From Carboxylicivirga sp. M1479 (GTDB lineage Bacteria; Bacteroidota; Bacteroidia; Bacteroidales; Marinilabiliaceae), in contig NZ_VKDE01000037.1 in assembly GCF_007097485.1 (NCBI RefSeq), positions 1-42,731 of the forward strand: 42,731 nucleotides of DNA, given 5' to 3'. Under the pieces are notes generated by a model. It saw only the letters and a program-made list of their open reading frames with translations. It was not told the DNA's origin and did no database searches. Each line of letters begins with the position of its first letter. Within the stretch, counting starts at the first letter, position 1. Position numbers and translations under genes: made by a program. Shown in pieces: positions 120 through 24,406 of the stretch.

Positions 120-220
120 ATGAAACGACCATGTAAATTTAATTATCCAAATTGACACACATGCGGATGATGAAATTTACTTGAGAGTTCCATCTGACAG
201 ATGAAAATAAATTTAAACAG
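120..220 (+). promoter_or_regulatory. repeated leader element, copy A
   Basis: This leader lies directly upstream of the KamA-like gene and is shared with copies at 24257-24406 (+) and 5602-5513 (minus). It starts ATGAAACGACCATG and has arms GTAAATTT (133-140) and AAATTTAC (173-180) that pair perfectly. A CACACA segment lies between the arms, within a weaker ATCC/GGAT pairing. After the second arm come TTGAGAG, GTTCCATCTGAC and TAAATTTAAACAG, which ends at the start codon. CATCTG in the tail could pair with CAGATG at the start codon. The first nucleotides form a 12-codon frame (120-155) encoding MKRPCKFNYPN and a stop. Whether it acts as RNA, leader peptide or promoter is not resolved; I do not recognise a known riboswitch class. 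Confidence 0.7.
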
Positions 221-1495
221 ATGAAAATCTTAAGCTATAACGTTAAAAATTTCAGGCAACTAGAATACATAAAAATGCTCCCCGAAAGTGTTAAACAGGA
301 AATAGAAATTGTTTCCCGCGTTTTGCCTTTTAAAGCGAACAATTATGTAACCGACTACCTGATTGACTGGAAAAACTACGAAACAGACCCCTGTTACATA
401 CTCACTTTTCCGAACCGACACATGCTGCCGGAGGATGATTACCAGAAAATTAAATGGGCGGTTGTGAATAACAAAGCCCAGCATGAAATCACTCAGATAG
501 CCAACAACATTCGCCTGAGTCTTAACCCACATCCAGCACAACAACAATCAAACATACCAAGCTTAAATGGCGAACCCTTGCCAGGCGTACAACACAAATA
601 CCGCGATATTGCCTTGTTTTTCCCTACACAAGGACAAACCTGTCATGCCAATTGCACTTTTTGCTTTCGCTGGCCTCAATTTGTAAAGGACCTGGATCTT
701 CAATTTTCGATGAAAGAGATTGACCGTGTGTGTGACTATTTCAGGCAACATGAGCATTTGCATGAACTATTGTTTACTGGTGGCGACCCAATGATTATGA
801 GTCCGCGTACCATTAGTAAATACATCGACACCATTTTCAAGGCCAATTTAAAAAACCTGAAAACCATTCGTTTTGGAACCAAATCACTGACTTGGTGGCC
901 GTTCGTATTTCTTCCGCAATACAACGAAGAAGCACAAGAAATGCTAGATTTGTTCAAACGAATTGTTGACAAAGGCATTCACCTTTCTATTATGGCACAC
1001 TTTAACCATTACCAGGAGATGGGTAACAGTGCGGTGGCCGAAGCCATTGCTAACATTCGTGCCACAGGAGCCGAAATTAGAACGCAATCACCTCTTTTGA
1101 ATAACATTAATGCATCGGCCGAAGTATGGGAAAAGATGTGGGATCAGCAGGTTAACATGGGCATGATACCCTATTATATGTTTATCGAACGCGAGACAGG
1201 TCCTTATGGCTACTTTCAGGTGCCCTTGGCTAAAGCGTACGACATATTTACCAATGCCATACGCTATACATCTAGCTTAGCTAAAACTGTTACAGGACCA
1301 TCCATGTCGGCAGCCATGGGTAAAGCACAAATTATGGGCATCATCGAGAATCCAGTAAATGGAGAAAAGTATTTTCAAATTCAATACATCAGGCATCGTG
1401 ATGTGAACCAATCGTACAAACCATTTTTAATGCACTACGACGAAAATGCCACATGGATAGATCAGTTAAAACCCGTTGACTCGTTTATAAAATAA
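221..1495 (+). CDS. KamA-like radical SAM protein (lysine 2,3-aminomutase family)
   Basis: This 424-residue protein carries a radical SAM cluster motif CHANCTFC with cysteines at about residues 141, 145 and 148, matching the CxxxCxxC ligands of the [4Fe-4S] cluster that cleaves S-adenosylmethionine. A following LLFTGGDPM segment is the GGD-type SAM-binding strand. Length and layout fit the KamA family of PLP-dependent aminomutases, but the usual glycine-rich PLP-lysine segment near the C-terminus is not obvious; GPSMSAAMGK is the closest stretch. The substrate may therefore not be lysine. The ATG at 221 is used because the leader element runs into it with the same spacing as at the other two copies. 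The gene stands alone and is convergent with the downstream reductase. The family call is firm and the reaction is not. Confidence 0.8.
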   Translation: MKILSYNVKNFRQLEYIKMLPESVKQEIEIVSRVLPFKANNYVTDYLIDWKNYETDPCYILTFPNRHMLPEDDYQKIKWAVVNNKAQHEITQIANNIRLSLNPHPAQQQSNIPSLNGEPLPGVQHKYRDIALFFPTQGQTCHANCTFCFRWPQFVKDLDLQFSMKEIDRVCDYFRQHEHLHELLFTGGDPMIMSPRTISKYIDTIFKANLKNLKTIRFGTKSLTWWPFVFLPQYNEEAQEMLDLFKRIVDKGIHLSIMAHFNHYQEMGNSAVAEAIANIRATGAEIRTQSPLLNNINASAEVWEKMWDQQVNMGMIPYYMFIERETGPYGYFQVPLAKAYDIFTNAIRYTSSLAKTVTGPSMSAAMGKAQIMGIIENPVNGEKYFQIQYIRHRDVNQSYKPFLMHYDENATWIDQLKPVDSFIK

Positions 1496-1546
1496 GATGA
1501 TGAGGTGTGGCATATCTTAAAACACTACACTCATTGGAAACTTAAG

Positions 1547-1600
1547 TTTTGATCACCCCTAAGCTCCCATTGAAGCGGAGCTTGTAGGGCGATCGAAAAA
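1547..1600. terminator. bidirectional terminator-like inverted repeat between convergent genes
   Basis: A long imperfect stem pairs TTTT-GATC-CCCT-AAGCTCC (1547-1567) with GGAGCTT-AGGG-GATC-AAAA (1577-1599) around the loop CATTGAAGC. T and A runs at the outer ends would give U-rich tails on both strands. It sits between two genes that end toward each other. Confidence 0.6.
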
Positions 1601-1632
1601 GATCTCTTCTTACACCCACTTCACTCACCACA

Positions 1633-3255
1633 TTAATAAACTTCTTCCTGGTATTTCTTAGCGCCTTTTAGCCCTTCAAAATAAGTGAGCGCATCACTTT
1701 CGTTCATCTGTTTATGTTTTGCAATGGCCTTAATAAAACTGCTACGTACCGTTACAGCCAACTGGTCTTTACTACCACAAACATAGGTAACAGCCCCTTT
1801 CTCTATCCATTCCAAAATTTCACGCCCATTTTCTTCAATCAGATGACTCACGTATCGTTTTTCCTTCTGATCGCGCGAGAAAGCAGTACTTAACTGCTGA
1901 AGGGTACCATCTTTTTGAAATGACATGAGCTCATCTTTATACAAAAAGTCCGATTCACTATTGCGCTCGCCAAAAATCAACCAGTTCACACCCTTGGCAC
2001 CACGGGCCCTGCGCTCTTGTAAAAAACCCCTAAAGGGCGCTATACCTGTACCTGCTCCAACCATGATCACGGGAGCATCATCATTATCTGGTAATCGGAA
2101 TTTGGCAATAGTTTCCAGGGTAACCGGCACCATATCACCCTCATCTAATCGATTCCATAAATAGGATGAACAGACACCATTTCTTACCCTTGAGCCACCA
2201 TTATTTTCAATCACCTTCACCACAATGTCGGCCTGATCGTTTACCGCACTTTTGCTCGATGAAACAGAATACAAACGCTGACTCAACTTACGTAAAACAC
2301 TCAGAAATTGCTCAACAGTGATGTGCCCCGGATAATCCAACACCAAATCCATGATGTCTTTCTCACTGCTATAAGACTCAAGCGCTTTATCGTCTTGCAC
2401 TAATTGATTAAGTGCTTCAACTTGTACAATTTCGGCATATTTTTTTATCACCAAAGGAGTTACAAGTGTTAGCTCATAATCATTAATCAACACATCTTTC
2501 AATAAACGTGTGGTCTCCTTTTGAGGCACAGGGTAGGCTTTATCAAAATTCAATACCGTCAATAGTTCATCAACCAACGCGCGCGAATTGGTTCCATAAA
2601 CACCAATGGCATCACCCGGTAAATAGTCAATACCAGAATTTTTCAGCGACAGGCTAACATGCAGCACTTTCTTACTACTGGTTTCTGAAGTCAATAGTTT
2701 CTTTTCCAGCAGCTCGGCCTTGTATGCCGAATGTTGCTCTCCATCGATTTTTAGCTCAAAGGTAAAGCCCTCTTTATTGGGTGGATTGACTTTTTTAAGC
2801 TGTCCATCCAAGGACTGAAAAACATCGAGAACCCACTGCTTAGCCGTTTCTTCAAAATCAATATCACACTTAGCATGCTCCATTACCGGGTGGCTTCCCA
2901 ATTCCTCCAGGCGCTTATGAATATCCTCGCCTGTTTGACAAAAATAACGGTAGCTACTATCGCCCAATCCCAAAACAGCAAATTGTGCCTTTACCGAATC
3001 CATAGCATCACTGTGCAGAAATTCATAAAAACCCTCGGCTTGAACAGGCGGTTCACCTTCTCCATGCGTACTTACAATTACTAACAGGTTCTTAATGATC
3101 TTTACCTGGCTATAATCCATCTCTTGCATATCAAGCAATAAAGCTTCGTATCCAAGGCTCAGGGCATATTCGTGTGCTAGTACTGCCACCGATTTTGCAT
3201 TACCAGTACGACTACCAAACAGAACATATAAAGTATCTTTCAATTGACTCATCAT
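1633..3255 (-). CDS. CysJ-like diflavin reductase (sulfite reductase flavoprotein type)
   Basis: The protein is a 540-residue NADPH-diflavin reductase. The N-terminal flavodoxin domain (about residues 8-150) has the FMN phosphate loop SRTGNA. A ferredoxin-NADP-reductase-like module follows, with the FAD motif RLYSVSS, the GVCSSYL segment and the NADP-binding GAGTGIAPFRG. It ends KKYQEEVY, resembling the C-terminus of CysJ, where a terminal aromatic residue stacks on FAD. CysJ normally passes electrons from NADPH to the hemoprotein CysI, which is not in this window, so the partner is unknown. Many Bacteroidota carry a solo reductase of this kind. The first two codons are both ATG, so the start is uncertain by one residue. 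No operon partner is adjacent. Confidence 0.85.
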   Translation of the reverse strand: MMSQLKDTLYVLFGSRTGNAKSVAVLAHEYALSLGYEALLLDMQEMDYSQVKIIKNLLVIVSTHGEGEPPVQAEGFYEFLHSDAMDSVKAQFAVLGLGDSSYRYFCQTGEDIHKRLEELGSHPVMEHAKCDIDFEETAKQWVLDVFQSLDGQLKKVNPPNKEGFTFELKIDGEQHSAYKAELLEKKLLTSETSSKKVLHVSLSLKNSGIDYLPGDAIGVYGTNSRALVDELLTVLNFDKAYPVPQKETTRLLKDVLINDYELTLVTPLVIKKYAEIVQVEALNQLVQDDKALESYSSEKDIMDLVLDYPGHITVEQFLSVLRKLSQRLYSVSSSKSAVNDQADIVVKVIENNGGSRVRNGVCSSYLWNRLDEGDMVPVTLETIAKFRLPDNDDAPVIMVGAGTGIAPFRGFLQERRARGAKGVNWLIFGERNSESDFLYKDELMSFQKDGTLQQLSTAFSRDQKEKRYVSHLIEENGREILEWIEKGAVTYVCGSKDQLAVTVRSSFIKAIAKHKQMNESDALTYFEGLKGAKKYQEEVY

Positions 3256-3483
3256 TTTAGCTTTGTTTTAAAAGGAAAAAGAGGTCGAATTGTTCACATA
3301 ATGCCACCTATTCTACTGATGAAACGGAGAATGCATTTTTCAAGCAGAAATTAAATATTTTCGTCGACAGTTGAGAGGAGTAGCAGGTTTGAAGCACTTT
3401 CTGAATTACCTACTAAAATTAATGCCTAGACCTAGAATTTGAATGTAGTCCGAATTAGGATATTCACTTACATGTGACTAATA
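3256..3483. other. intergenic sequence with a possible degenerate leader-element copy
   Basis: No gene is seen. On the plus strand ATGAAACGGAGAATG at 3319 is followed at 3371 by TTGAGAG. These two words occur in the same order and at a spacing similar to the leader copies at 120 and 24257, and the frame reads MKRRMHFSSRN then stop. GTTCC and the terminal AT-rich block are absent and no plus-strand gene follows, so this is at most a decayed copy. Confidence 0.25.
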
Positions 3484-3519
3484 AAAAGCACCTTTAATTC
3501 GTTAATTAAAAGTGCTTTT
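3484..3519 (-). terminator. rho-independent terminator of the catabolic cluster
   Basis: A 16-bp stem with one mismatch (AAAAGCACCTTTAATT with AATTAAAAGTGCTTTT) around a CGTT loop lies 36 nt past the aldolase stop codon. Read on the minus strand it ends in a T run. It probably closes the transcript that starts at the E2 gene or at the dehydrogenase leader. Confidence 0.75.
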
Positions 3520-3555
3520 ACAGTTTGAAGAACTGATCTACTGTAACTAATACAG

Positions 3556-4221
3556 TCAAAAATCAATATCATATAGGCCTTCGGCATCTTTTTCGAACCA
3601 CTCTACACTCATATCAGTCATAGGGTGACTTCGTAAACGCTCCAATATTTCAAAATTGATGGTGGCTGCATGACTACCCATCATACTAACACGATGCACC
3701 TGGTCAACGGTTTTAAAGCTAGCTGCCAATACTTGTGTATCTAAGCCGTATTGCTCAAAATTCTCTACAATATTTCCCACCACTTCAATACCGTGCGATG
3801 AGATATTGTCTAAGCGATTGACATACGGAGCCACCCAATCGGCCCCTGCTCGGGCAGCAACCAAAGCTTGTTGCTGTGTAAAAATGGCGGTTGCAGTTAC
3901 CTTTATACCAGCCTCTTTTATCATGCTCATCGCCTTGTATCCCTCTTCAGTAACAGGAATTTTAGCGAAATAATTATCTCCTAAAGCGTACTTTTGCTTG
4001 TAAGCTTTAGCCTCACGAAGCATATCCTCTGCTTTATTACTTATCATTTGCACATGAAGCATTTTATCACCTACAATCTCAATCAACCCTGGTAAAATCT
4101 GTGACATAGGCTTACCAGCCTGAGCAATAATTGTAGGATTAGTTGTAACTCCATCAATGGGAAAATAGTAAAACAACTTTTTCAACTCCTCTACATTAGC
4201 AGTATCCGCTAAATACAACAT
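3556..4221 (-). CDS. fructose-6-phosphate aldolase / transaldolase (FSA family)
   Basis: This 221-residue class I aldolase has the length of E. coli FsaA (220). It begins LADTANVEELKK and contains GVTTNPTI; the Schiff-base lysine lies in FAKIPVT (about K87). VAPYVNR provides the tyrosine and VQMIS the glutamine that distinguish FSA enzymes from true transaldolases. FSA reversibly cleaves fructose 6-phosphate to dihydroxyacetone and glyceraldehyde 3-phosphate, and also accepts hydroxyacetone-type donors. It is the last gene of the cluster, 10 nt after the SorE-like dehydrogenase, so the two are almost surely co-transcribed. This context suggests it cleaves a ketose phosphate made by the upstream dehydrogenases. 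The family is secure; fructose 6-phosphate as the real substrate is not established. Confidence 0.85.
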   Translation of the reverse strand: MLYLADTANVEELKKLFYYFPIDGVTTNPTIIAQAGKPMSQILPGLIEIVGDKMLHVQMISNKAEDMLREAKAYKQKYALGDNYFAKIPVTEEGYKAMSMIKEAGIKVTATAIFTQQQALVAARAGADWVAPYVNRLDNISSHGIEVVGNIVENFEQYGLDTQVLAASFKTVDQVHRVSMMGSHAATINFEILERLRSHPMTDMSVEWFEKDAEGLYDIDF

Positions 4222-4231
4222 ATCTATTCAA

Positions 4232-5512
4232 TTAATAATTTAATTTATCCGCATTCTCTAATAAAAAAGCTTCCGCTTCTACATTCCACAAACCTACATT
4301 TTTTTCACAAATCTCATGCAACTGAGCGTAAACAGGATTGCTTTGACCTAAGCTCTTGAATTCTGAAATGGCTGTTAGCGGCATCTCAACATGAGGATAC
4401 ACCAATTTTTTGCCACCTGGAATATTTGGTAAATCAAGCGTTGCCTCTGGCACTACGTTTAGTCCACCAATATGTGTCACCAAGCCAGCAGGATCTAGTC
4501 CATTAGTCATTATCTCAAGCGCTTCTTTCATATCATAGGTATTTCCACCTGATGTACCCACAATATGTGTATAAGCGTAATGCACGTTATAAAAATTCAT
4601 TTTGGCTGAGAACTCGGTATTAGATGGTCCTGCAAAGAAGTTTAAACAACCATCAAAACCCAGAATGGCATCGCCCTGCTCAATTACCGGTGCTACTGGT
4701 GCAAAAACAAATACATCGTTGTAACCATCACCTCCTGTTATTTCGCGCAGACCAGCCACTGCATCACCCATCTTAGAGGTATTGACATATCGTAAATCAA
4801 TACCCTTTGACGCTGCAAATTCAACCGTATAAAGACTTGCTGCTCTATCTAAACGCGCCTGGTCAATATCAGTAACTACTAATAATGATGGTTTACGATC
4901 TTCACGACGAAGGGCGTAATTAATGGCGGCCAAACCCATAGGCCCAACGCCCGCTAAAATTGCCATCTTACCTCCATCAACAATCTCCATATCGTGCACG
5001 TAACTACCTGCTTTAGTATGATAATTAGCATGCATAGCTCCAATTACACAACTTAATGGCTCGGCTAATGACGCTGGATAAAAACCTGGACCTTCATAAG
5101 CTAACAAGCAATCCTGTACCAACACATCTTTCGGAATAATTACATAGGTTGCATCACCTCCAATGTGCTGGTATGAATAACCTGGTGCGCTTAACACACC
5201 AACTGGACCGTCCTCATAATAAATAGCCGGTTGAATGGAAAATTTCTGGCCAGCTTTGAACTTATCGGTCCATTTAGCCCCCACTTCAATAATTTCACCC
5301 GCAAACTCATGACCGATAATAATCGGATTTGTATCAATATCATTAGGTACCCGCTTGTGGTCACTGGCTTGGTTCGCTGCCTTGTAACTTGACATACAAA
5401 GGCTATCCGTTACCACTTTTGCTAAAATCTCATCCTCTGTAATCTGGGGTAATTCGAACTCTTCTATGCGAAGGTCTTTTTTACCGTATAATCGTACTGC
5501 TTTTGTTTTCAT
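4232..5512 (-). CDS. SorE-like zinc-dependent alcohol dehydrogenase
   Basis: This medium-chain dehydrogenase resembles L-sorbose-1-phosphate reductase and other polyol dehydrogenases. Numbered from the chosen start, likely zinc ligands are C39 (DSLCMSSY) and H68-E69 (GHEFAGE). The nucleotide-binding turn is GVGPMGLAAI. The four-cysteine structural-zinc lobe of classical alcohol dehydrogenases is not seen. An ATG seven codons upstream exists, but the ATG at 5512 is preferred because the leader element ends there with the same spacing as at 221 and 24407, and because family similarity begins at KTKAVRLYG. It should interconvert a polyol (or its phosphate) and a ketose with NAD(P). It is 10 nt from the aldolase and separated from the upstream SDR by about 180 nt holding the leader. 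Confidence 0.8.
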   Translation of the reverse strand: MKTKAVRLYGKKDLRIEEFELPQITEDEILAKVVTDSLCMSSYKAANQASDHKRVPNDIDTNPIIIGHEFAGEIIEVGAKWTDKFKAGQKFSIQPAIYYEDGPVGVLSAPGYSYQHIGGDATYVIIPKDVLVQDCLLAYEGPGFYPASLAEPLSCVIGAMHANYHTKAGSYVHDMEIVDGGKMAILAGVGPMGLAAINYALRREDRKPSLLVVTDIDQARLDRAASLYTVEFAASKGIDLRYVNTSKMGDAVAGLREITGGDGYNDVFVFAPVAPVIEQGDAILGFDGCLNFFAGPSNTEFSAKMNFYNVHYAYTHIVGTSGGNTYDMKEALEIMTNGLDPAGLVTHIGGLNVVPEATLDLPNIPGGKKLVYPHVEMPLTAISEFKSLGQSNPVYAQLHEICEKNVGLWNVEAEAFLLENADKLNY

Positions 5513-5602
5513 CTGTTTAAATCTATTTTTCAATGGTCAGATGGAACTCGCCAAAATTAATCATACTTCTGTGTGAGAAGCTATTCTCATGGCTCGTTTC
5601 AT
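5513..5602 (-). promoter_or_regulatory. repeated leader element, copy C
   Basis: Read on the minus strand, this copy starts ATGAAACGAGCCATG at 5602 and passes a CTTCT-CACAC-AGAAG hairpin. It continues with GAGTTCCATCTGAC (5549-5536) and ends TAGATTTAAACAG directly before the dehydrogenase ATG. Its arms pair as GCCA/TGGC instead of the GTAAATTT/AAATTTAC of the other copies, so pairing at this position may be kept while the sequence changed. The first 42 nt form a frame encoding MKRAMRIASHTEV and a stop. It gives the dehydrogenase-aldolase pair its own control point inside the larger cluster. Confidence 0.65.
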
Positions 5603-5690
5603 AATTCTTAAGTATCAAGATGCAAGACGTTAGTATCAAGACATTAGTCGATATACCCGCATCATACATCATCATTCAAACATCATTCAT

Positions 5691-6782
5691 CTATCTGAGC
5701 ATTTCCTGGCCTCCCGTTACCGGAATGGCCTGCCCTGTTTCATATTCCTGATCGATCACATATACAATGGCTTTAGCAACATCTTTTACACGACAACCTC
5801 GTCCTGCTGGCACTTGTTTCTCGTAATGAGCCTGAACATCTTCAATGCTACAAGCACCTGGCACTTTACCAGCTTTTAGGTATTGCACAAAGAGGCCATT
5901 CTCAGGATCGCTCCATAATGGACCATCAAAGAAATTGCCCGGACAAATGGAGTTCACTTTAATATTGTGAGGCATCAGCTCCAATGCAAAAGACTGTGTT
6001 AGACCAATACCACCAAATTTACCACCTGCATAGGCAAAATTACGGTTACTGCCCTTTAATCCTGATTTAGAATTAATTTGAATGATATCAGTGAAGTGTT
6101 GCGGTGCCACTTCAGCCTGAAGTTTCATCACACGCGAAGCATGCTTGGCACAATAAAAATATCCGGCATAGTTCACCTTCGTCATTAAATCAAAAGTATC
6201 AGGGTCCATCTCATCCAAGCCTCCTGCCCGCAGAATACCAGCATTACTAATGATTGCATCAACACCACCCAATTGTAGCACCGTTTGCTCAACCATGCGC
6301 TTAACAGAGTCCGAATCCCCCACATTTACATGAACAAAAATGGCTTTATTGATTTGGCCTAAACTATTCAGCTTGTTAACCATTGCATTACCCACTTCCT
6401 CGTTTAAGTCGGCCACAACAACATGTGCACCTTTAGCGAATAATTCCTCGGCAACACCACCGCCAAAGCCCTGTGCTCCACCGGTCACAATAATAATGCG
6501 ATTTTCAACCACACCATTGATGACAGGTGCACCCTTGGGGTATTCAACCGAAATCACTCCTTTTCCTTTAATAGAAATGGTTTTAACAGGTGCTGACCCC
6601 TTTGATAAGTGCTCTTTTAAAGCGGCTATCAAACGCTCCTTATTATCACTTTCATCAATACAAACACAATTGTCAGAGGAAGAATCACACTGTTCAGTTG
6701 CATCTAAACTTCCATTACAACTTACCAATGCTGCCTTAGATAACAGCATGCGTACCATTGGTATAATATCAATCAACTCCAT
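5691..6782 (-). CDS. short-chain dehydrogenase/reductase with Cys-containing N-terminal extension
   Basis: The C-terminal about 265 residues are a classical SDR. They have the dinucleotide motif TGGAQGFGGG (about 100-109), a conserved SNAGILRAGG strand and the catalytic YAGGK. Similar proteins are annotated as sorbitol-6-phosphate 2-dehydrogenase. The first about 95 residues are an extra domain with four cysteines (C22, C32, C39, C41) in a short acidic stretch; ordinary SDRs lack this and it may bind a metal or a partner. The protein begins inside the end of the PHP gene (14-nt overlap), so the two are translationally coupled. With the SorE-like enzyme it would give a two-step oxidoreduction of a polyol or ketose. 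The substrate is inferred only. Confidence 0.8.
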   Translation of the reverse strand: MELIDIIPMVRMLLSKAALVSCNGSLDATEQCDSSSDNCVCIDESDNKERLIAALKEHLSKGSAPVKTISIKGKGVISVEYPKGAPVINGVVENRIIIVTGGAQGFGGGVAEELFAKGAHVVVADLNEEVGNAMVNKLNSLGQINKAIFVHVNVGDSDSVKRMVEQTVLQLGGVDAIISNAGILRAGGLDEMDPDTFDLMTKVNYAGYFYCAKHASRVMKLQAEVAPQHFTDIIQINSKSGLKGSNRNFAYAGGKFGGIGLTQSFALELMPHNIKVNSICPGNFFDGPLWSDPENGLFVQYLKAGKVPGACSIEDVQAHYEKQVPAGRGCRVKDVAKAIVYVIDQEYETGQAIPVTGGQEMLR

Positions 6783-8004
6783 GAAGTTCTTTTTTACAGG
6801 TTACATGTTTAATAAGTGAATTTCCCAGTTGGAAAAACTCTTCTCGTCTTTCCTGAATGAACACACCTGTTTCATTCAGTATGCCTTTGCCATCTTTCGC
6901 AAACAAGTATTGATGAGCGGCTAAAATACAGGCTCCTTCATAATTGATTTGCAGCAATTCATCATCCAGGGGTACGCCACCTTTAGCCATAACCTCTATA
7001 GGCTGTTTACCTGGACTATTATGCTCGGTACCAAAGCTCACAACAAAGCCATGCTTTCTTAAATATACAGCATACTCTTTAAGTACCTGATGCGAATTGC
7101 GGGTGGGTATCAATTCTACCGAATAGATATTTCGACGCTTAAGACCTTCTTTTACTTTATGCAATTCACGTTCAAAATCAGTATACCCTTTTACGGCATC
7201 GGCCAAAAATGGATAAGTAGGTACGCCGCCAGCTTTTAAGATAATTTCTTTAATAACACTACTAGGTGCAAATGCATCCGGATTTTCTTCAACATAAGCC
7301 GGTTTACCCGCCTTTAGTAAGGCACTTCTAATCTCATTTTCCATTCCTGCAGATGAGTGCAGATTACTTTCGAAGCACTTATTACCAAATAACAAAAGGT
7401 AAAAACCCAGTAAGCGTTCAGTATAATGATAATGCTTCTCAGCTAACAACCTAATTGCCAAAGCCAAATGGCGTTCACGCACATGACCACTGGTCAGATT
7501 TCTTTTAATGTCATCAAAATTTAATTCATAGCCAAAACCAACCTCTTTAAACCAATCATTTAACTTCTGCGTCATTTCTTCAGAGCGTTGATTGTTTAGC
7601 ACCATAATGTCATCCAGTACCCTTTGGTCATCGTCTGACAAAACTGAGGGATAAGCCAAAGCTTTACCACTAATGTAGATACGCCCCGGGTTAGATGGAT
7701 CATTGATTAAAAAGCCGTTCTTTTTATCTTCCTGATTAATGCCGATAAATTCAACATTAAACAATGGATACAACCCTCTTTTGAAAGCGCCACTACACCA
7801 TTTTTGATAGGCTTCAAATGTGTAAAAATCATTCACACCAACAACCTGAACATTTTCTTCCAATGCCTGATCTAAGGCCTCTTCAACAGTTGCAAACGCA
7901 CTAAATGAATAGGGAGTATGAAGGTGATTGTTAACCTTTAGAGGTTCCAATTCCCCCGAAACTGTTTCGGGGGTAAAATCTTTCATATAATTTATGTAGC
8001 TCAT
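6769..8004 (-). CDS. PHP-domain protein (putative metal-dependent phosphoesterase)
   Basis: This 411-residue protein has the first PHP metal motif NNHLHTPYS (H27, H29) and later possible ligands in NVEFIG and in FGTEHNSPG. The second motif, usually ending Asp-His, reads GVNDFYT (D59, F60), so one expected histidine is absent. The PHP superfamily covers histidinol-phosphatase-like phosphoesterases and related hydrolases acting on small phosphate esters. It lies 10 nt after the E1 gene and overlaps the SDR start, so it belongs to the same operon. A role in dephosphorylating, or hydrolysing or isomerising, a pathway intermediate is inference; catalytic activity is uncertain because of the altered motif. 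Confidence 0.7.
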   Translation of the reverse strand: MSYINYMKDFTPETVSGELEPLKVNNHLHTPYSFSAFATVEEALDQALEENVQVVGVNDFYTFEAYQKWCSGAFKRGLYPLFNVEFIGINQEDKKNGFLINDPSNPGRIYISGKALAYPSVLSDDDQRVLDDIMVLNNQRSEEMTQKLNDWFKEVGFGYELNFDDIKRNLTSGHVRERHLALAIRLLAEKHYHYTERLLGFYLLLFGNKCFESNLHSSAGMENEIRSALLKAGKPAYVEENPDAFAPSSVIKEIILKAGGVPTYPFLADAVKGYTDFERELHKVKEGLKRRNIYSVELIPTRNSHQVLKEYAVYLRKHGFVVSFGTEHNSPGKQPIEVMAKGGVPLDDELLQINYEGACILAAHQYLFAKDGKGILNETGVFIQERREEFFQLGNSLIKHVTCKKELHGVD

Positions 8005-8014
8005 TGTTGTTTGG

Positions 8015-11874: not shown

Positions 11875-11878
11875 ATCC

Positions 11879-14094: not shown

Positions 14095-14164
14095 GCCAAA
14101 CTATGCATTTGGAATTATATGTAATTAGCAAAAATGATTAAGACTCAATTGACGATACATTCTT

Positions 14165-14199
14165 AAAAAAAGGAGGAGAAAGCCTGAGCCCTCTCCTCC
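14165..14199 (-). terminator. terminator of the fucose operon
   Basis: Stem GGAGGAGA (14172-14179) with TCTCCTCC (14192-14199), preceded on the plus strand by seven A, gives a classical hairpin plus T tract on the minus strand, 34 nt past the fucO stop codon. It also separates the convergent GntR transcript. Confidence 0.8.
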
Positions 14200-14232
14200 A
14201 ATTATCTAATCCTATAAGATAAAAACCCAAGC

Positions 14233-15387: not shown

Positions 15388-15447
15388 TATATTCTTATTT
15401 AATTGTCCTATTTTTTTCCAAATGAGCAAAATAAAACCGGCATAGCA

Positions 15448-15469
15448 GTTAACGGTTCACACCATTAAC
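15448..15469 (-). other. intercistronic hairpin between the aldolase gene and fucO
   Basis: GTTAACGGT and ACCATTAAC pair with one mismatch around TCAC. There is no T run, so it looks like an mRNA-processing or stability structure rather than a terminator. Confidence 0.35.
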
Positions 15470-15514
15470 TAACTACCCGGATTTCTATGTATTACTACAG
15501 TAATTTACCTCGTC

Positions 15515-16807: not shown

Positions 16808-16865
16808 AGTCTTTTTGTTATTTATTTTAAAGTTTTAATATCTATTGAGTAATGTTCGTTAATAA

Positions 16866-18170
16866 TTATTTCAGTACCATTAACTTCCGATAGGAGTAGT
16901 TTCCATAAAGGGCGATAACAACAAAGCATAACATTGGCAAAATAAATGATGCATTAACAGCAGGCAACCAAGCCACTGTTTCAAAGTCAATTATCATCGC
17001 CTGTAGCATTGGCATAATAGCTCCTCCAACAATAGCCATTACCAACCCGGCAGATCCCATGGTTGTATCCTTACCAACATTCCCTAGTGCAATACCATAA
17101 ATGGTAGGAAACATTAAGGACATAAATACAGAGGTTGCCACCAGGCAATACAAGCCAGGCATACCAACAATAAAAACAGCACCTGCTGTAGTTGTTATAC
17201 CACCTATTGCAAACCACATTAATAACTTACTTGCATTAACATATTTCAGAATAAGTGTACTGGCAAAACGACTTACAATAAATAAACCCATGGCCCACAT
17301 ATTGTGATACTGACCGGATTCTTTTGTTAATCCTAGGTTCTCGGCATACTGAATAATGAAGGTCCAACACATTATTTGAGCTGCAACGTAAGCTATCTGT
17401 GTTAACACACCAGCGCGATACACTTTATTTTTAATTAATCGCTTCATAGATTGCAAGGGATGAATTTGCTCCTGATGTGCCGTATCCGGCATTTTCACCA
17501 CTGCAATAATCATCAGCATTATTAATACAACAATACCCAATGCCACATAGGGATCTCTGATTATGGCCAAATCATGCAAGCGATCGGCTGCTTTGCTTAC
17601 TTCATCCAGTGTTGAAAATTCTATTTTATTCCCCTGAGCATCAAAATGCTGATCAGCTGATAAATTGGCCAAAACAAACTTTGCAGCCACCATCATTCCT
17701 AAAAATGAACCCATTGGATTAAATGACTGCGCCAGATTCAAACGGCGAGTTGATGTTTCTTTAGAACCTAAAGAAAGAATAAACGGATTGGCAGTTGTTT
17801 CAAGAAATGCCAGACCAAATGTTAGGATATATAAGGATCCAACAAAAAAGCCGAACATTTGAAACTGCGCAGCCGGATAAAACAAAAGAGCTCCGGTAGC
17901 ATACAAACCAAGGCCTAATAGAATTCCTTTTTTATAAGAATATTTTTGCGCAAATAAGGCAGCCGGAATAGCCATAGTTGCATAACCTCCATAAAACGCA
18001 AATTGAATTAAGGTTGCCTTTGTATGCGTGAGCTCCATCACCGTTTTAAAGGCCGCCACCATTGGATTTGTAATATCGTTAGCAAAACCCCATAAAGCAA
18101 AGAGGCTTGTTATTAAGATAAATGGTACGAGGTATTTTTTTTCAACAACTTTCTCAGTTATTTTACTCAT
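16866..18170 (-). CDS. fucP: L-fucose:H+ symporter
   Basis: This is a 434-residue major facilitator protein of the FucP family. It starts YLVPFILITSLFALWGFAND and has ITNPMVAAFKTV, the FYGGYATMAIPAALF helix and FLETTANPFILSLG, all FucP signatures. About 12 hydrophobic helices can be traced. A hydrophilic segment after helix 5 (about residues 170-195) is somewhat longer than usual. It brings L-fucose across the inner membrane with protons. It lies between fucU (35-nt gap) and the aldolase gene (58-nt gap). No TonB-dependent receptor or fucosidase is in the window, so release of fucose from glycans is encoded elsewhere. Confidence 0.93.
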   Translation of the reverse strand: MSKITEKVVEKKYLVPFILITSLFALWGFANDITNPMVAAFKTVMELTHTKATLIQFAFYGGYATMAIPAALFAQKYSYKKGILLGLGLYATGALLFYPAAQFQMFGFFVGSLYILTFGLAFLETTANPFILSLGSKETSTRRLNLAQSFNPMGSFLGMMVAAKFVLANLSADQHFDAQGNKIEFSTLDEVSKAADRLHDLAIIRDPYVALGIVVLIMLMIIAVVKMPDTAHQEQIHPLQSMKRLIKNKVYRAGVLTQIAYVAAQIMCWTFIIQYAENLGLTKESGQYHNMWAMGLFIVSRFASTLILKYVNASKLLMWFAIGGITTTAGAVFIVGMPGLYCLVATSVFMSLMFPTIYGIALGNVGKDTTMGSAGLVMAIVGGAIMPMLQAMIIDFETVAWLPAVNASFILPMLCFVVIALYGNYSYRKLMVLK

Positions 18171-18205
18171 AATTTTGGATTTAGTAATCTGTTCATTTGG
18201 ATTTT

Positions 18206-18640
18206 TTAGCCCACAGGGGTAACACCTTTTTTAAGAATGATATTTCCATACTTTGCCGTTTCACCGGTCATCACTACCGCAAAGGCTTCTTTTGTGCGTT
18301 CATAAAAAGCAAAGCGATCAATTCGTTCGATAGGCGCTACAGTGGGATTTGTTTTGTGTATAACATGTAAATACGAAGCTTCAACATTAGAATCTAAAAC
18401 ATCTCCCTCAACAGCTTGCATCATTATTAAGGGCGCTTTAACATAGGCATCCAACTCCAAAAGCGGTAAAATTGCTTCTAGTAAATCAGGAACACAAAGT
18501 CCATCAGCCCTTAAAACACGATTATTAAAGCTCTCGCCAGGAAAATGAGCATCTGCTAGGATGATTTCGTCACCATGCCCCATTCGGTATAAAACTGAAA
18601 GCAATTCGGGGCTTAATAGTGGAGATATGCCTTTTAACAT
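18206..18640 (-). CDS. fucU: L-fucose mutarotase
   Basis: The 144-residue RbsD/FucU-family protein (E. coli FucU is 140) has the start [20 protein letters not shown]. The family histidine H22 sits in [15 protein letters not shown], and the C-terminal [10 protein letters not shown] is conserved. It interconverts alpha and beta L-fucose so that the isomerase is supplied with the right anomer. It sits 27 nt after fucK and 35 nt before fucP in the same transcript. Confidence 0.93.
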
Positions 18641-18667
18641 TATCGATTAATTTTGTATGAAACTTGA

Positions 18668-20137
18668 TTATTTCTTAAAGTTAAGATACTTCTTGTATAA
18701 AGAATTATAGATGGCAGAATTGCCAGATGGCATAACCAACTTAGGTTTATAGTCTATTTTATTCCTTGCTGCCATACTAGTTTTACTCACGCCTAAACCA
18801 GCAAATACGTACATAGAAGCACCGAGTACAGTTGTTTCCTTTTGATCAATAAACTGAATTGGCACATTACAAACATCAGCCCTAAGCTGATTCCACAACC
18901 TATTTTTAGAACCTCCGCCTACACAAATAATTCGCTCAGCTTTAAAGTTACCAGCCACCTCAAGCGCATCTAAAGCTTCACGAAGACGAAAAGCCAAACT
19001 TTCTAGAAAAGCTCGATACAACTGACCTCTTTGCGTATTAATCGTTAAACCTTTTATCGTACCTCCATTGGCACTGGAGCCATCATCATAAAAAGCAGGA
19101 TCCACCATAAGTCCATTCGCCCCTGGAAGCTCTTGCTCTGCATCGGCTATCATGGTTTCATACAACTCATCTCCTTTTAACTCTGGATAATAATGACGTG
19201 AAAACCACTCTAACACACCTGATCCCAACCAGTTTTGACCTATGTCATAAACCCCTTTTTGAGCGTCAATTTCAATAGTCAGGTTGTTATCCAACTCTTT
19301 CTGCGTCGACTTAAATGATTGACTTCTTGTCATCAAAATCTCCCAGGTTCCAGAACTTAAAACAGGCTGATTCAACTGAGCTCCTGAACCAAAAATGGCA
19401 AATTGAGTATCGTGTCCAGCTAAAAATACTGGCACATCTAAAGGCAAGCCTGTTTCTTCGTGCGCTTGCTGATTAATAGAACCAGCCTGCTGTCCGGCCT
19501 CACCAATTTCACCAAACAACTCTGCATCAACGCCAATAGCATCCATCACCCTTTTCGACAATTTCCTATCTTTTAGGTCAGACATCATAGTTGTCCCCAT
19601 CATGGTAACATCATTTAGAAGAACACCTGAAAGTTTATGAATTAAAAGCGAAGGAATGAAAACGAAGCGATGAGCTTCATCAACTATCTCTGGTTTGTTT
19701 TCTTTAAACCAGATCATTTTATTGATTGTATTGAATGCATATGGATAGACACCCGTGATTTTATACAAATCTTGTAAAGGAAGGTATTTATCAATGTTAT
19801 CCATAATAGCAGATGTACGCTGACACTGCCATGAAATAACGGGGTATAATAATTCACCTTTCTCATCGACAAAGGCACCGTCTACTCCAAAAGTTGTGAC
19901 GGTTGCGCCTGCAATTCTAGAACAATCAATCTCAGAGGTAACATACTTAGCTGCCTTACGCAGTTTACCCCATAATTTTTCTAAATCCCAAATTCTTCCT
20001 CCTGCATAATGAGGGTCTTCATCTGTTTCATTGGGCAAGGCATATGAAGATAAAATTTGGCCAGCATCATCAATAGCTATAACCCTAACATTGGTAGCAC
20101 CACAATCAAAAACAATTGCTATATCTTTTTCTATCAT
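18668..20137 (-). CDS. fucK: L-fuculokinase
   Basis: This FGGY-family kinase of 489 residues has the N-terminal phosphate loop FDCGATNVRVIAID, near identical to E. coli FucK. It also has FGVDGAFVDEKG, the AGHDTQFAIFGSGA motif and the C-terminal ATP motif ICVGGGSKNRLWNQ. An open frame extends five codons upstream but begins with TTG; the ATG at 20137 is chosen because similarity starts at once after it. It phosphorylates L-fuculose to L-fuculose 1-phosphate with ATP. Rhamnulokinase is a close relative, but the fucI, fucU and fucP neighbours decide for fucose. Confidence 0.92.
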   Translation of the reverse strand: MIEKDIAIVFDCGATNVRVIAIDDAGQILSSYALPNETDEDPHYAGGRIWDLEKLWGKLRKAAKYVTSEIDCSRIAGATVTTFGVDGAFVDEKGELLYPVISWQCQRTSAIMDNIDKYLPLQDLYKITGVYPYAFNTINKMIWFKENKPEIVDEAHRFVFIPSLLIHKLSGVLLNDVTMMGTTMMSDLKDRKLSKRVMDAIGVDAELFGEIGEAGQQAGSINQQAHEETGLPLDVPVFLAGHDTQFAIFGSGAQLNQPVLSSGTWEILMTRSQSFKSTQKELDNNLTIEIDAQKGVYDIGQNWLGSGVLEWFSRHYYPELKGDELYETMIADAEQELPGANGLMVDPAFYDDGSSANGGTIKGLTINTQRGQLYRAFLESLAFRLREALDALEVAGNFKAERIICVGGGSKNRLWNQLRADVCNVPIQFIDQKETTVLGASMYVFAGLGVSKTSMAARNKIDYKPKLVMPSGNSAIYNSLYKKYLNFKK

Positions 20138-20214
20138 ATCAATTTGCAACAATAGATTGTGGGCAAGGAGATTAATTAATTAACCCCCTTAGCCCAAGTC
20201 AATCTCAGGATATT

Positions 20215-21999
20215 TTAAATTCCGTATAATGAACCGTAATTGGCACAAGCTCTATAATCAGATCCTTCTTTATCTTCACCAAAAGCCGACCAAGCACTTG
20301 GACGGAATACATCATCACTTGATACATTATGCATATTAACAGGAATACGTAGCATTGAAGCCAAAGTAATTAAATCAGCTCCGATATGACCATAACTGAT
20401 AGCTCCATGATTAGCACCCCAGTTTGCCATCACCGAATATACATCCTTGAAAGCACCTTCTCCATTTACGCGAGGCACAAACCAGGTAGTTGGCCATGTA
20501 GGATTCGTGCGCTCATCCAATACAGCATGAATATCTTCTGGCAGTTCAACAGTCCATCCTTCTGCTATTTGCAACACAGGACCCAAGCCTTTAACCAAAT
20601 TAATGCGACTCATGGTCACAGGCATTTCTCCTTCTGTTCTAAAACAAGATGAGAATCCTCCTCCCCTAAAATACTCACGAACAGCAGCTGGCCACTGTGT
20701 ATTATCTAAACACTTCTGTGCCTCTTCTTCTGATATTTCCCAGAATGGTTTCATCGACGGCTCACCGTTCTCGTTACGCTGTTGCGCTGTTGCATCTAAG
20801 GTAGTAGAACCCGAGTTAATCAAATGGATAATTCCATTTTCGGCCAATCCAGACAACTCTTTACCTGTAACTCTTTTTACTGCATCAGGACTCCAATAAG
20901 TACGTACATCAGAAAAAATCTGAGACGTATTACTTAATAGGTGGCCAAACAACATGGCAACACCATTGAGGCTATCGTTCTCAGTGGCTAAAATAAAAGA
21001 TTGGCGAATACCATTCCAGTCGAATGATGAATTTAATATGGCCTCTGCGAAATCTGCATTTGGCTGATAATCGGTCCATTGCCTCTGCCCCTGGAAGCCA
21101 CCTAAAATAGCATTTCTACCAAGCCCCTCTTCACGGTATCCCATTTCAACCAACTTAGGATTACCAATCATCATATCGCGGCAAATCAAGGTCATTTTAA
21201 TAACGGTTTCCCATTCATGCTGCTTGCGCTCGGTACTAACCTTATTTTTATCTGAATTATAATCCTTACCCTCTTTGCAGTTTTCTTTTGTCCAAGCCAA
21301 AGCCTTTTCAAACTCTGTTTTATCGTAAATTCCCTCATCAATACGGCGAAGGATTTCTGCTGAATCAACAAATTCTGCACGAATACCCAAATAGTCCTGG
21401 AAGAAATTTGTATCTACCATAGATCCGGCAATTCCCATGGAACTGTAACCAATGGATAAGTACGATTTACCCTTCATTTGAGCTACGGCCAATGCCGATT
21501 TAACAAAGCGCAATAACTTCTCTTGTACATCAGACGGAATACTGATATCGCCTGCATCTTGCACATCGCGACCATATATACCAAAAGTTGGTAACCCTTT
21601 TTGAGTATAACCAGCTAATGCAGCAGCTAAGTAAACAGCTCCCGGACGTTCAGTACCATTAAATCCCCAAACTGCTTTTGGCAATAAAGGATCGGTATCC
21701 ATAACTTCGGTGCCATAACACCAACATGGAGTAACCGTTAAAGAAACACCAACACCCTCTTTCTTGAACTTCTCAGCACACATAGCAGCCTCAGCCACTC
21801 CACCAATACATGTATCGGCAATCACACACTCGATGTTTTCACCACTAGGGAATTTCAAATTCTCTTCAAGAAACTTCGCAGCAGCTTTCGCCAAGTCCAT
21901 AACCTGCGATTCCAATGATTCTCTTACACCATTTTCACGGCCATCTATTACCGGTCTAATTCCAACCTTTGGTAAATCACCTATTAGTCTGTTAGCCAT
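20215..21999 (-). CDS. fucI: L-fucose isomerase
   Basis: The 594-residue protein (E. coli FucI 591) starts with [20 protein letters not shown]. It has [44 protein letters not shown], and the metal-site region with [16 protein letters not shown]. It ends with the [15 protein letters not shown] block typical of the family. It is a Mn-dependent cytoplasmic hexamer that converts L-fucose to L-fuculose, and can also act on D-arabinose. It is the first gene of the operon and is divergent from the AraC-type regulator with about 120 nt between them, which should hold the fucose-responsive promoter. Confidence 0.96.
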
Positions 22000-22043
22000 T
22001 TTTAATATTTTATATTGTTACTTTTTTAATACATTAATTGAAC

Positions 22044-22103
22044 GATACAAACTTGCTTACAATTCCTTCCGTAAAAAATGTCTAAATTCAATATATTTGT
22101 ATC
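22044..22103. promoter_or_regulatory. candidate regulatory repeats between fucI and the AraC-type gene
   Basis: GATACAAA (22044-22051) and TTTGTATC (22096-22103) form an 8-bp inverted repeat with 44 nt between the arms. A possible -7 box TATATTTG (22092-22099) for the regulator gene overlaps the second arm, but no good TTG lies at the right distance. No convincing fucI promoter was found. Confidence 0.4.
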
Positions 22104-22118
22104 TATTTTAAACAACAC

Positions 22119-23009
22119 ATGAAAACTAGATTACAACATAAGGGTGATCCATCTGAAATCACACAGGTTATTCCGAAGTACGAAGTAAAAATCCACTGTT
22201 GCCGATATTGGTGGTTACAAAACTGGGAGTTTAAGGATTTGTCATTCCCATTCTGGAGGGTGTATCATAATAACTTTGATGGAGCAGCCATCATCTACAA
22301 GGATGAAGTAATACAAATAACACCAGACAAACTAATACTAATAGCTCCAAACACTTCTTATTCAACCTATCTTTATAATCATGCAATACCTCAAACAGGG
22401 TATGCTTTAAAAGGAGGGCGTGTCAATCAGAAGCTCCCTATTAACGAACAATTCCTTTTGCACCTCTTTATCCATTTTAACCTTGGCATGCCTTACGACG
22501 GCACCAAGGCAGGCATCTACACGCTTCCAATAACCGACGAATTAAAGACGATGCTGTCAAGAATTAAAAGACACTTAAACTATGAACACTCAAAATTTAG
22601 TTTCTTTTCAACTTTGGCCATCAACTCTATTATCAATCACTTATTATCGTCACTACCAGAAGAGAGCTGGCAAAGTGTCACAAAAGATTATAGAATTCTC
22701 AAAGTAATCAATTACATTGACCAACACATAACCACCAGCTTATCAAATCCTCAATTAGCTGAATTATCATCCATGGCCACCAATGCATTCACCCGGCTAT
22801 TCACACAAGAAACAGGTATATCACCGCAGAAATTTGTAAAAAAGAAACGCATTGATAAAGCCTGCATACTTATTCACCACTCACACTATTCAATAGAAGA
22901 AATTGCAACAAAGTGTGGTTTCGCTGACCGCTATCACTTTACGCGAATTTTTAGCCAGGTCACAGGTTATTCACCTGCAAAGTATAAGAAGGATTTTAGA
23001 ATAAAGTAA
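22119..23009 (+). CDS. AraC-family transcriptional regulator, probable fucose-operon activator
   Basis: The 296-residue protein has a C-terminal AraC DNA-binding domain (about 195-294) with two helix-turn-helix units. The first is LSNPQLAELSSMATNAFTR and the second IEEIATKCGFADRYHFTRI, followed by the family tail VTGYSPAKYKKD. The N-terminal about 180 residues form a cupin-like sensor region (IQITPDKLILIAPNT), which would bind a sugar. It is transcribed divergently from fucI, the classical arrangement for a local activator, as with FucR in enterobacteria, but the proteins are not evidently orthologous. In Bacteroides fucose operons a GntR-type regulator does this job, so use of AraC here differs. 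Confidence 0.88.
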   Translation: MKTRLQHKGDPSEITQVIPKYEVKIHCCRYWWLQNWEFKDLSFPFWRVYHNNFDGAAIIYKDEVIQITPDKLILIAPNTSYSTYLYNHAIPQTGYALKGGRVNQKLPINEQFLLHLFIHFNLGMPYDGTKAGIYTLPITDELKTMLSRIKRHLNYEHSKFSFFSTLAINSIINHLLSSLPEESWQSVTKDYRILKVINYIDQHITTSLSNPQLAELSSMATNAFTRLFTQETGISPQKFVKKKRIDKACILIHHSHYSIEEIATKCGFADRYHFTRIFSQVTGYSPAKYKKDFRIK

Positions 23010-23271
23010 TCTACTTTTGTAATGATATTATTCTTATACTAGTACAATTTTCCTCCCCTCCTAATTTTATGATTAGCATTCCTACGCATAGTTTGCATTA
23101 ACTATTATCACTAAATCAAAAAAGTTACTAAATAATATAAATCCTCAATTTAGGAATTCATTTTTTTAGAAATCGACAAATACATTTTTCATCTAATCAT
23201 ATTGACTAGCAACACGTTTCGCCCATGAAGCTTTCGGTTCTTTTTTAGAAATGCATGTAAGATGTATATAT
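23010..23271. other. gene-free interval
   Basis: This AT-rich stretch between the AraC-type gene and the tRNA terminator has no supported reading frame. I see no RNA gene or repeat in it. Confidence 0.5.
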
Positions 23272-23311
23272 ACAAAAAAAGCGATTCAAAGACTAAATCT
23301 CTGAATCGCTT
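23272..23311 (-). terminator. terminator of the tRNA gene
   Basis: A ten-base-pair stem, AAGCGATTCA (23279-23288) with TGAATCGCTT (23302-23311), is followed on the minus strand by a T7 run. It lies 11 nt past the tRNA 3' end. Confidence 0.85.
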
Positions 23312-23322
23312 GTTATTTCTAG

Positions 23323-23396
23323 TACCGAGAGGCGGGCTTGAACCGCCGACCTCAGGATTATGAATCCTGCGCTCTAACCAGCTGAGCTACCTCGGC
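23323..23396 (-). tRNA. tRNA-Met (CAU anticodon)
   Basis: The 74-nt cloverleaf has D stem GCTC/GAGC, anticodon stem CAGGA/TCCTG with loop TTCATAA (anticodon CAT) and T arm GGCGG-TTCAAGC-CCGCC. The acceptor is GCCGAGG/TCTCGGT with discriminator A. G1-U72 and G7-U66 are wobble pairs. CCA is not encoded. The first pair is not the mismatch of an initiator, so it is elongator Met; tRNA-Ile2, whose CAU is modified to lysidine, cannot be excluded from sequence alone. Confidence 0.9.
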
Positions 23397-23452
23397 ATTT
23401 TTTGCATTTTTGGAGTAATTAACACCTCTGTGTATCTCCTTTTTTGCGGTTG

Positions 23453-23483
23453 CAAATGTATGAGAAAACTTCATTCCTACCAA
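23453..23483 (-). promoter_or_regulatory. promoter of the tRNA gene
   Basis: On the minus strand TTG (23483-23481), 20 nt, TACATTTG (23460-23453) is a full Bacteroidota promoter, giving a start about 50 nt before the mature tRNA. Confidence 0.7.
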
Positions 23484-23666
23484 CTAAAAAAACGAAAAAA
23501 TTTGCTTTTTTTTATTACACACAAGCAAACTCATTAGTTTATAAGCAAATCGCTCCTGATTTTTTTTTCGTTGTGCAGCACTTAACACAAAGACCGTAAG
23601 TTTTAATTTTAACGAGAATTCTACTATATTGTAGGCCAATTCAGAATTCTAACAAAATACGCCAAT

Positions 23667-24056
23667 ATGCCAACTCCAAAGGAAAAATTCGAATTAGAAT
23701 ATATCATTAGGACCTCTCCATCTATTTTATTTACTCGCTTGAGTAACCCAAGTGGTTTATCAGAGTGGTTTGCTGATGACGTTAACCTAAAAGGAAAGGT
23801 ATTCACTTTTGTATGGGAAGGCTCAGAACAACAAGCCGAGCAAGTTTTACGTAAAGAAAATAAAATGGTACGTTTTCATTGGTTAGATGATGAAGATGAC
23901 AAAACGTATTTCGAATTCCGTATTAATGTAGATGATTTAACGGGCGAAACGGCTCTTGTTGTCATCGACTTTGCTGAGGAAGACGAAAAAGAAGATTCCA
24001 TTGAGCTTTGGAATCAACAAATTGATGAGCTAAAGCACGGCCTTGGCTCAGTATAA
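23667..24056 (+). CDS. START-like (SRPBCC) domain protein
   Basis: The 129-residue acidic protein resembles the START-like family common in Bacteroidota, distantly related to the AHSA1 fold. It has the N-terminal strand FELEYIIRTSPSILFTRLS, the SGLSEWFADDVNL helix, FVWEGSEQQAEQVL and a C-terminal helix IELWNQQIDELKHGLGSV. No signal peptide or membrane segment is present. The fold suggests a small hydrophobic pocket, but no ligand is known. In related genomes this gene sits near LptF/G and ribBA as here, though its own terminator at 24083 separates the transcripts. Family confidence is good; function is unknown. Confidence 0.75.
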   Translation: MPTPKEKFELEYIIRTSPSILFTRLSNPSGLSEWFADDVNLKGKVFTFVWEGSEQQAEQVLRKENKMVRFHWLDDEDDKTYFEFRINVDDLTGETALVVIDFAEEDEKEDSIELWNQQIDELKHGLGSV

Positions 24057-24082
24057 ATAAGCTAAATTCACCAGTACTATAT

Positions 24083-24114
24083 GCGCTTGACAAGATTGTC
24101 AGGCGCTTTTTTTT
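24083..24114 (+). terminator. rho-independent terminator after the START-like gene
   Basis: GCGCTTGACA (24083-24092) pairs with TGTCAGGCGC (24097-24106), including one G-U pair, around AGAT, followed by eight T. It is one of the strongest terminators in the window. Confidence 0.9.
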
Positions 24115-24256
24115 GTTGTAATATCTGGTTTTGGAATACTGTCATATAGCATCTTGCTAGTATCAATTACCTATACTACTTTTCATTAAAGCTATTTATA
24201 AGTAAGAGTTATCAGTCCCTCAATTGTCTTACCTGAAGACAAGCTCAACTCTTTAC

Positions 24257-24406
24257 ATGAAACGACCATGTAAATTTGATTATCCAAATTTTTCACACAG
24301 GAAGATGAAATACGAAGTATTCATGAATACGTTTGAACGTGAAAGTTTGATGAATAAAAAATTTACTTGAGAGTTCCACCTGACAAATAAAAATAGATTT
24401 AAACTG
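24257..24406 (+). promoter_or_regulatory. repeated leader element, copy B (long form)
   Basis: This copy starts ATGAAACGACCATG like copy A and keeps both arms: GTAAATTT (from 24266) and AAATTTAC (ending 24366). It also keeps CACACAGGAAGATG, TTGAGAGTTCCACCTGAC and the block TAGATTTAAACTG directly before the LptF/G start. It is about 50 nt longer than copy A between the arms. The extra part is rich in short palindromes (ATACGAAGTAT, GTATTCATGAATAC, ACGTTTGAACGT) and is bounded by GATGAA on both sides, so copy A may be a deletion between these repeats. The frame from its first ATG runs 37 codons (MKRPCKFDYPN onward) and stops within TTGAGAG. Confidence 0.7.

Follow-up and report, generated by a model that had tools for sequence, protein, structure and literature searches.

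Carboxylicivirga sp. M1479 carries on contig NZ_VKDE01000037.1 (42,731 nucleotides (nt), analysed over its full length and here called the window) a sequence of about 100 nt that recurs directly before the start codons of three unrelated genes, and the question raised by this locus is what kind of sequence this is. An initial annotation of the window proposed a cis-regulatory RNA, a leader-peptide attenuator or a promoter-carrying repeat. The repeat is a real and unusual mobile element that had been misread as a leader. That it is mobile, and not a leader RNA, is close to certain; it is probably non-autonomous, a mobile piece of DNA of about 90-105 nt which inserts at ATGAA and keeps the start codon of the gene that it enters.

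The three copies lie where they were initially placed, each ending one base before an ATG (221, 5512 and 24407). The distance from GTTCC to ATG is 34, 35 and 34 nt in window order, which fits the 34, 34 and 35 nt given earlier if the second copy named there is the one at 24257 and the third the one at 5602. The copies, their parts and the genes 3' of them are:

120..220, plus strand: copy 1, type 1 (long central hairpin), 114.8 bits with the covariance model; the ATG at 221 is next
133..180, plus strand: central hairpin of copy 1, arms GTAAATTT (133-140) with AAATTTAC (173-180)
185..196, plus strand: conserved GAGTTC and internal guide CATCTG of copy 1; the guide covaries across the family
218..223, plus strand: 3' end of copy 1 with the start codon, CAGATG, complementary to the guide
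221..1495, plus strand: radical SAM gene 3' of copy 1, 424 amino acids (weak Pfam Radical_SAM match)
5513..5602, minus strand: copy 2, type 2 (GCCA/TGGC central stem), 93.6 bits; the ATG at 5512 is next
5510..5515, minus strand: end of copy 2, CAGATG; guide CATCTG at 5543-5538
4232..5512, minus strand: zinc-binding dehydrogenase gene 3' of copy 2, 426 amino acids (Pfam)
24257..24406, plus strand: copy 3, type 1 (imperfect pairing, internal insert), 63.3 bits; the ATG at 24407 is next
24305..24349, plus strand: 45-nt insert within copy 3, starting ATGAA, with ATGAA again at 24350; a related insert occurs in locus L049
24407..25852, plus strand: LptF/LptG permease gene 3' of copy 3 (Pfam)

A covariance model was built from 22 copies of the window's genome (G000), including copies 1 and 2 of the window and excluding copy 3. 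All three window copies were recovered with E < 1e-7, while the next match in the window had an E of 0.47. Searched with one mismatch allowed, the 14-nt core GAGTTCCAYCTGAC has 40 places in the window's genome, of which at least one (L020) is no copy, against a single place for the reversed control; the repeat is therefore beyond chance. A search of the genome and its relatives with this model revealed a dispersed family, not three leaders. At least 66 matches were obtained in the window's genome and 3 to 64 in each of 13 other members of the genus searched, and matches occurred in 35 of the 60 genomes searched, the own genome included. When more candidates were allowed to be scored, G030 had 93 matches and G035 79. 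A pattern scan of the named genomes gave at least 116 stretches. Among the matches listed are Marinilabilia, Carboxylicivirga, Labilibacter, Thermophagus, Anaerophaga, Natronoflexus, Breznakibacter, Prolixibacteraceae, Paludibacter and Dysgonamonadaceae. Four contigs of a viral collection also match; in two of them (L442 and L445) a copy with a paired 3' end stands directly 5' of an open frame, and these contigs may be host DNA or carry the copy as phage cargo.

Copies share one layout: ATGAAACGA, one or more central hairpins, GAGTTCCAT NNG, an A/T-rich linker, CNN and then ATGAA. Their length is mostly 86-105 nt (301 distinct copies), and by reading the copies, subfamilies with the centres GTAAATTT/AAATTTAC, GCCA/TGGC or GCATG/CATGC were distinguished. 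For the window's genome 86 of 90 model matches were tabulated (three duplicates and one cut by the locus end were dropped), and for six relatives 95 of 103 (one duplicate and seven weak or partial matches dropped); tabulated loci are the best-scoring matches and not a random sample, and copies in related species cannot be counted as independent. In the 95 copies of the six relatives the right end was ATGAA in 94 and GTGAA in one, and the left end was ATGAA in 93. In tandem stacks neighbouring copies share ATG(AA). No terminal inverted repeats were seen by eye in the 22-copy alignment, whose ends are ATGAAACGA and AAACAG. A further subfamily starting ATGAAACATCCATGGCAAG stands in tandem 3' of copies in six loci (L036, L131, L134, L135, L138 and L145), and a palindrome, CCCGATAAATCGGGAC, is inserted within the guide of copies in L016, L043 and L056.

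Movement is seen between two close relatives, G009 and G011, which are 96% identical over a 3.8-kb stretch. When 12 loci of G009 (13 matches) were compared with nine loci of G011, only two coincided in place, in a comparison that would miss a copy under the model threshold. Joined flanks were searched for eight copies of these two genomes, and two spanned the junction in the other species (G011:C33, 94%; G011:C86, 90%). At both empty sites a 90-nt insert stands exactly between the upstream DNA and the ATGAA of the gene, with no base lost. In G014 two copies lie inside genes of the REP-associated tyrosine transposase (RAYT) type (L228, G014:C8:150000-156500), each gene being interrupted; both are in a duplicated stretch and may represent one event. 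Homologues read LTFQVV or TLQIV at this place, which puts the insert after TTG, with the 3' AAG of the copy pairing with its own CTT. The two sides thus differ (TTGAA and AAGAA), which argues against a plain target duplication. The permease locus gives a looser instance of the same turnover as the empty sites: two lptF/G genes are adjacent in the window (24407-27506), and the copy precedes the first of them here and the second, by gene order, in G013, while no model match adjoined the gene in the remaining 20 lptF/G loci scanned.

What varies in concert within a copy is its internal guide and its 3' end. The initial annotation had seen a hint of compensatory change in the central arms. The arms themselves are as described, GTAAATTT/AAATTTAC in copies 1 and 3 and GCCA/TGGC in the minus-strand copy, but they represent two subfamilies with different central hairpins. 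Compensatory pairing proper is between CATNNG and CNNATG at the 3' end: the internal motif GAGTTCCATNNG is complementary to the CNNATG that ends its own copy. Among 305 copies with ATGAA 15-40 nt 3' of the guide (20 of 325 copies, lacking it, were excluded, and no structure-fitted alignment was used), the whole triplet is complementary in 268, with 11 pair types, and by pair counts and shuffles the suspected covariation is real. Perfect pairing was found in 171 of 195 copies at gene starts (shuffled mean 39.4, maximum 56), in 55 of 64 tandem copies (mean 11.7, maximum 23) and in 42 of 46 other copies, away from genes (mean 7.7, maximum 16). Pairing is equal in copies that are not at genes, which a guide for transposition explains better than control of translation does. 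Pair counts from two structure-fitted alignments (A2 and A4) agree with this result, although such counts lean towards the structure of the model to which the alignments were fitted. In A4, two whole-structure measures (pairs changed on both sides and further pair types) were not above shuffles because the variation sits in two columns. By eye, six of the seven bases of the guide GTTCCAT also match the ATGAAAC at the 5' end. Folding of three copies as single-stranded DNA was only weakly better than that of shuffles (z -0.9 to -2.0), and the RNA folds of three copies included the 3' stem (z -2.0, -1.4 and -4.1).

The claimed link to start codons is also seen in most of the genomes sampled. Copies without a following copy were compared with free ATGAA sites in nine genomes, and starts were over-used in eight. 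In G000, 33 copies were at starts and 3 elsewhere, against 52 start and 240 intergenic free ATGAA sites (Fisher p = 7e-19); the corresponding copies were 19 and 2 in G004 (p = 1e-10), 13 and 2 in G005 (p = 3e-5), 7 and 0 in G009 (p = 8e-5), 6 and 1 in G011 (p = 0.03), 6 and 1 in G019 (p = 0.003), 5 and 2 in G030 (p = 0.002) and 9 and 0 in G034 (p = 5e-4). The link is not universal, however, as copies were found equally away from starts in G035 (2 and 6, p = 1). These p-values are guides, as sites were chosen by model score and genes by open frame only, and the species share history; for this test, as for the leader-length and upstream-flank sets, two of the three pairing bases were required beforehand. 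Counted over loci, 128 copies were at starts, 32 in tandem and 51 elsewhere from L242 onward, some places being counted twice since named genomes recur in the genome set. In the named and viral-collection loci, 83 of 122 copies were at genes, 17 in tandem and 22 elsewhere (6 of 128 excluded). Flanks 5' of occupied starts resemble those of unoccupied ATGAA starts, and the left ATG therefore takes the place of the gene's original start. The sole difference was a commoner AT just 5' of the ATG (31 of 139 occupied against 24 of 234 unoccupied starts); an upstream motif at occupied starts was rejected, the flanks being otherwise ordinary.

The letters of the ATGAA target alone do not account for this bias, and since G035 lacks it, placement is not fixed by that target alone. 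Probably an extra factor, either targeting or selection, concentrates copies at starts. Host selection is a possible though not a favoured explanation: the element would give a translation start or a promoter, and only useful or harmless insertions would survive. The A/T-rich 3' end before the ATG and the unbiased distribution in G035 speak for it, whereas convergent gene pairs should offer harmless gaps and copies off starts are nevertheless few in most sampled genomes, and the copies with empty sites are already at starts. That the element is aimed at translation start sites as such, by insertion coupled to transcribed or translated DNA, is a speculative proposal to which we give somewhat low odds. 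The single-stranded coding strand at gene 5' ends would be an example of such coupling, by which the element would find start codons genome-wide; the element's own ATGAA end, paired with the internal guide, would restore each start codon entered.

How might a non-autonomous element of this kind move? It enters ATGAA, in most genomes sampled mainly one that begins a gene, and ATGAA stays on both sides. By analogy with known systems, a mobilising enzyme supplied in trans would read the guide-end pairing and the GTTCCAT/ATGAAAC match on folded single-stranded DNA. It is likely that the pairing is used for movement, and a mobiliser of the Y1/HUH kind is put forward tentatively. Guides beside hairpins choose the cleavage sites of IS200/IS605 elements and can be changed to retarget them (PMC8266576; PMC6006769). 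Like these, the element has a short fixed adjoining target and a hairpin with a nearby guide complementary to the end, and lacks visible terminal inverted repeats. Unlike them, it has no tnpA in or beside the copies examined, shows a start-codon bias and carries its guide 3' of the main hairpin on the strand read (5' on the other strand). The logic is like that of IS200/IS605 and of repetitive extragenic palindromes (REPs), and membership in IS200/IS605 is not claimed.

Several observations weigh against this account, besides G035 and the copies that a place comparison would miss. A third joined flank had only 76-78% identity and is diverged or paralogous, and the remaining five of the eight had no counterpart across the junction in G009 or G011. 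Left-flank triplets matched right triplets in 26 of 305 copies, the chance level (shuffled 21.6); target choice by the variable bases of the guide was rejected on this ground. In G014 the guide CTT fits its own end AAG and not the TTG on the 5' side, so that reading of the target by the guide is not demonstrated. No autonomous copy was found among the named loci, the only ones searched, and longer copies with a gene inside were sought by exact motif in the named loci and those of the viral collection: of six widely spaced candidates, the four inspected held another gene or truncated copies. Y1_Tnp (PF01797) was present in 35 of 40 genomes, but G013 and G020, with 33 and 16 copies, had no Y1_Tnp match, and several Y1-bearing genomes had no model match. 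Around 37 Y1 loci, which are part of many more Y1 matches, the model found only two copies, both inside the broken G014 genes. Near-matches of GAGTTCCAT by a part of the Y1 genes were, outside L228, never preceded by the element's 5' end. A Y1 transposase as a linked partner was dropped after this survey, which covered PF01797 in 40 genomes as well as model and motif matches near the Y1 loci scanned. An integron attC site was likewise rejected, since its boxes do not fit the element's end sequences. No element at start codons was named in the literature found, which excluded subscription papers and leaves its absence unproven.

Among other identities, the strongest rival to the proposed ATGAA-directed element is a genuine REP of the TnpA-REP/RAYT type, such as that of the Bacteroidetes subclass 2.6, and this is itself rather unlikely. 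Like REPs, bacterial interspersed mosaic elements and REPINs moved by TnpA-REP (RAYT), the element is tiny, multicopy and structured, has no conserved frame and turns over between near relatives, and it has a guide-like motif. G000 also contains a RAYT-like gene of 178 amino acids with NHVH, and genes of subclass 2.6 are described as having atypical structures at their flanks, with copies at other places in the genome (PMC6006769). On the other side, the element measures about 100 nt, none of the RAYT-like genes examined was flanked by it, the two complete Y1 proteins on contig 63 adjoin other palindromes (by eye), and two copy-bearing genomes have no Y1 match. REPs carry GTAG or CGTC at the hairpin foot and stand mostly after genes (PMC3733652), while the 22-copy consensus has no such foot and the element stands before genes, at the start codon. 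The missing foot does not exclude subclass 2.6, because REPs of this subclass also lack GT[AG]G (PMC6006769). The subclass 2.6 TnpA-REP of Bacteroidetes is the best lead.

That an IS110-type recombinase, with a bridge RNA made in trans, moves the repeat as a mini-element is improbable. The same genomes do contain an IS110 element (X, below), which lands at the end of the repeat, but X matches in 7 of 60 genomes and the element in 35 of 60 (own genome included in both), and no end sequence in common with X was seen.

Still less can be said for a cis-regulatory RNA, riboswitch-like or controlling translation, whose 3' stem would hide the start codon and open on a signal; we consider it very improbable. 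The stem does include the ATG of the gene, covaries and is contained in the RNA folds of three copies. However, copies away from genes keep the pairing equally, the genes are unrelated, copies stack in tandem and two empty sites are exact. In line with the initial remark that no known riboswitch class is matched, only a 5S rRNA and a tRNA reached the Rfam gathering score in the window, and at a relaxed score seven loci gave no relevant weak match. A leader-peptide attenuator is scarcely credible: the 5' ATG opens MKRPCKFDYPNFHTGG or MKRAMRIASHTGV in some copies, but its frame scatters from four codons (56 copies) to fully open (26 copies) among the 301 distinct copies.

Other dispersed elements offer limited parallels. 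The free-standing IS605 stem-loops of Borrelia are a partial precedent, being of transposon type, dispersed without a transposase and kept beside genes; they stand at 3' ends of lipoprotein genes (PMC2775950), in contrast to the copies here, which are at start codons and match no resident insertion sequence. Miniature inverted-repeat transposable elements are also small, non-autonomous and of high copy number with empty sites, but the present element has no visible terminal inverted repeats, and its repeated end is nearly always ATGAA, not a varied target duplication. HEARO/IscB elements are said to adjoin ATGA or GTGA, and the target letters may be similar. No Rfam match to them was obtained in the sequences scanned, and no such gene was seen in the copies, for which no dedicated search was made.

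In this bacterial group, dozens of genes per genome can carry a foreign insert of 100 nt that separates the start codon from the native upstream DNA. Annotation of gene starts, searches for leader RNAs and models of expression would mistake it for a conserved leader. Should the mobiliser be found, this would be a natural means of setting short DNA at start codons with the genes left intact, and the rule of recognition can be tested directly through the covarying guide.

Two observations concern individual window copies. Copy 3 looks decayed, judging by its CACCTG/CTGATG pairing and the 45-nt insert, and this ATGAA-bounded insert hints at another element, smaller and sharing the target. Repeats resembling TCTTGATACT lie 5' of copy 2 (window 5620-5690) and also 5' of copies in L004 and L061.

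The element further hosts a second mobile element at its 3' end:

1..119, plus strand: X, 3' end of an IS110-family insertion sequence, directly 5' of copy 1; the contig breaks inside X

Window positions 1-119 are identical over 119 nt at four contig ends (L125, L139, L140 and L141) and over 100 nt at L127, and are matched at 92% over 110 nt in L082 and 91% over 104 nt in L083. The IS110 class of X rests on the relative in L082 (391-1650, G015), whose DEDD transposase with a Transposase_20 domain matches PF02371 (E 1.9e-18) and PF01548 (E 7.3e-11), since contig ends truncate the copies in G000. Sixteen contig ends of G000 carry an identical X start, CGTTAGTTTGTGG, and all 16 left junctions are preceded by CAGAT, CACAT, CATAT or CAAAT. 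A recognisable repeat copy, in some cases decayed or with inserts, was found just 5' of X at 15 of them; at the junction on contig 120 (L061) only a strongly decayed copy was present. In G015 the relative of X sits between a repeat copy and the ATG of the gene, and L083 has the same 3' junction. From its left and 3' junctions, X splits AT|G and restores the ATG. X in G000 also occurs at ends one base off its internal copy of the target end, and the match is not strict. In the 5' non-coding region of X, AAACAGATAGAT (G000) and AATGAGATAGAT (G015) repeat the target ends AAACAGAT and AATGAGAT, respectively, and this internal copy changes in step with the target end between the two homologues, as is expected of an IS110 guide.

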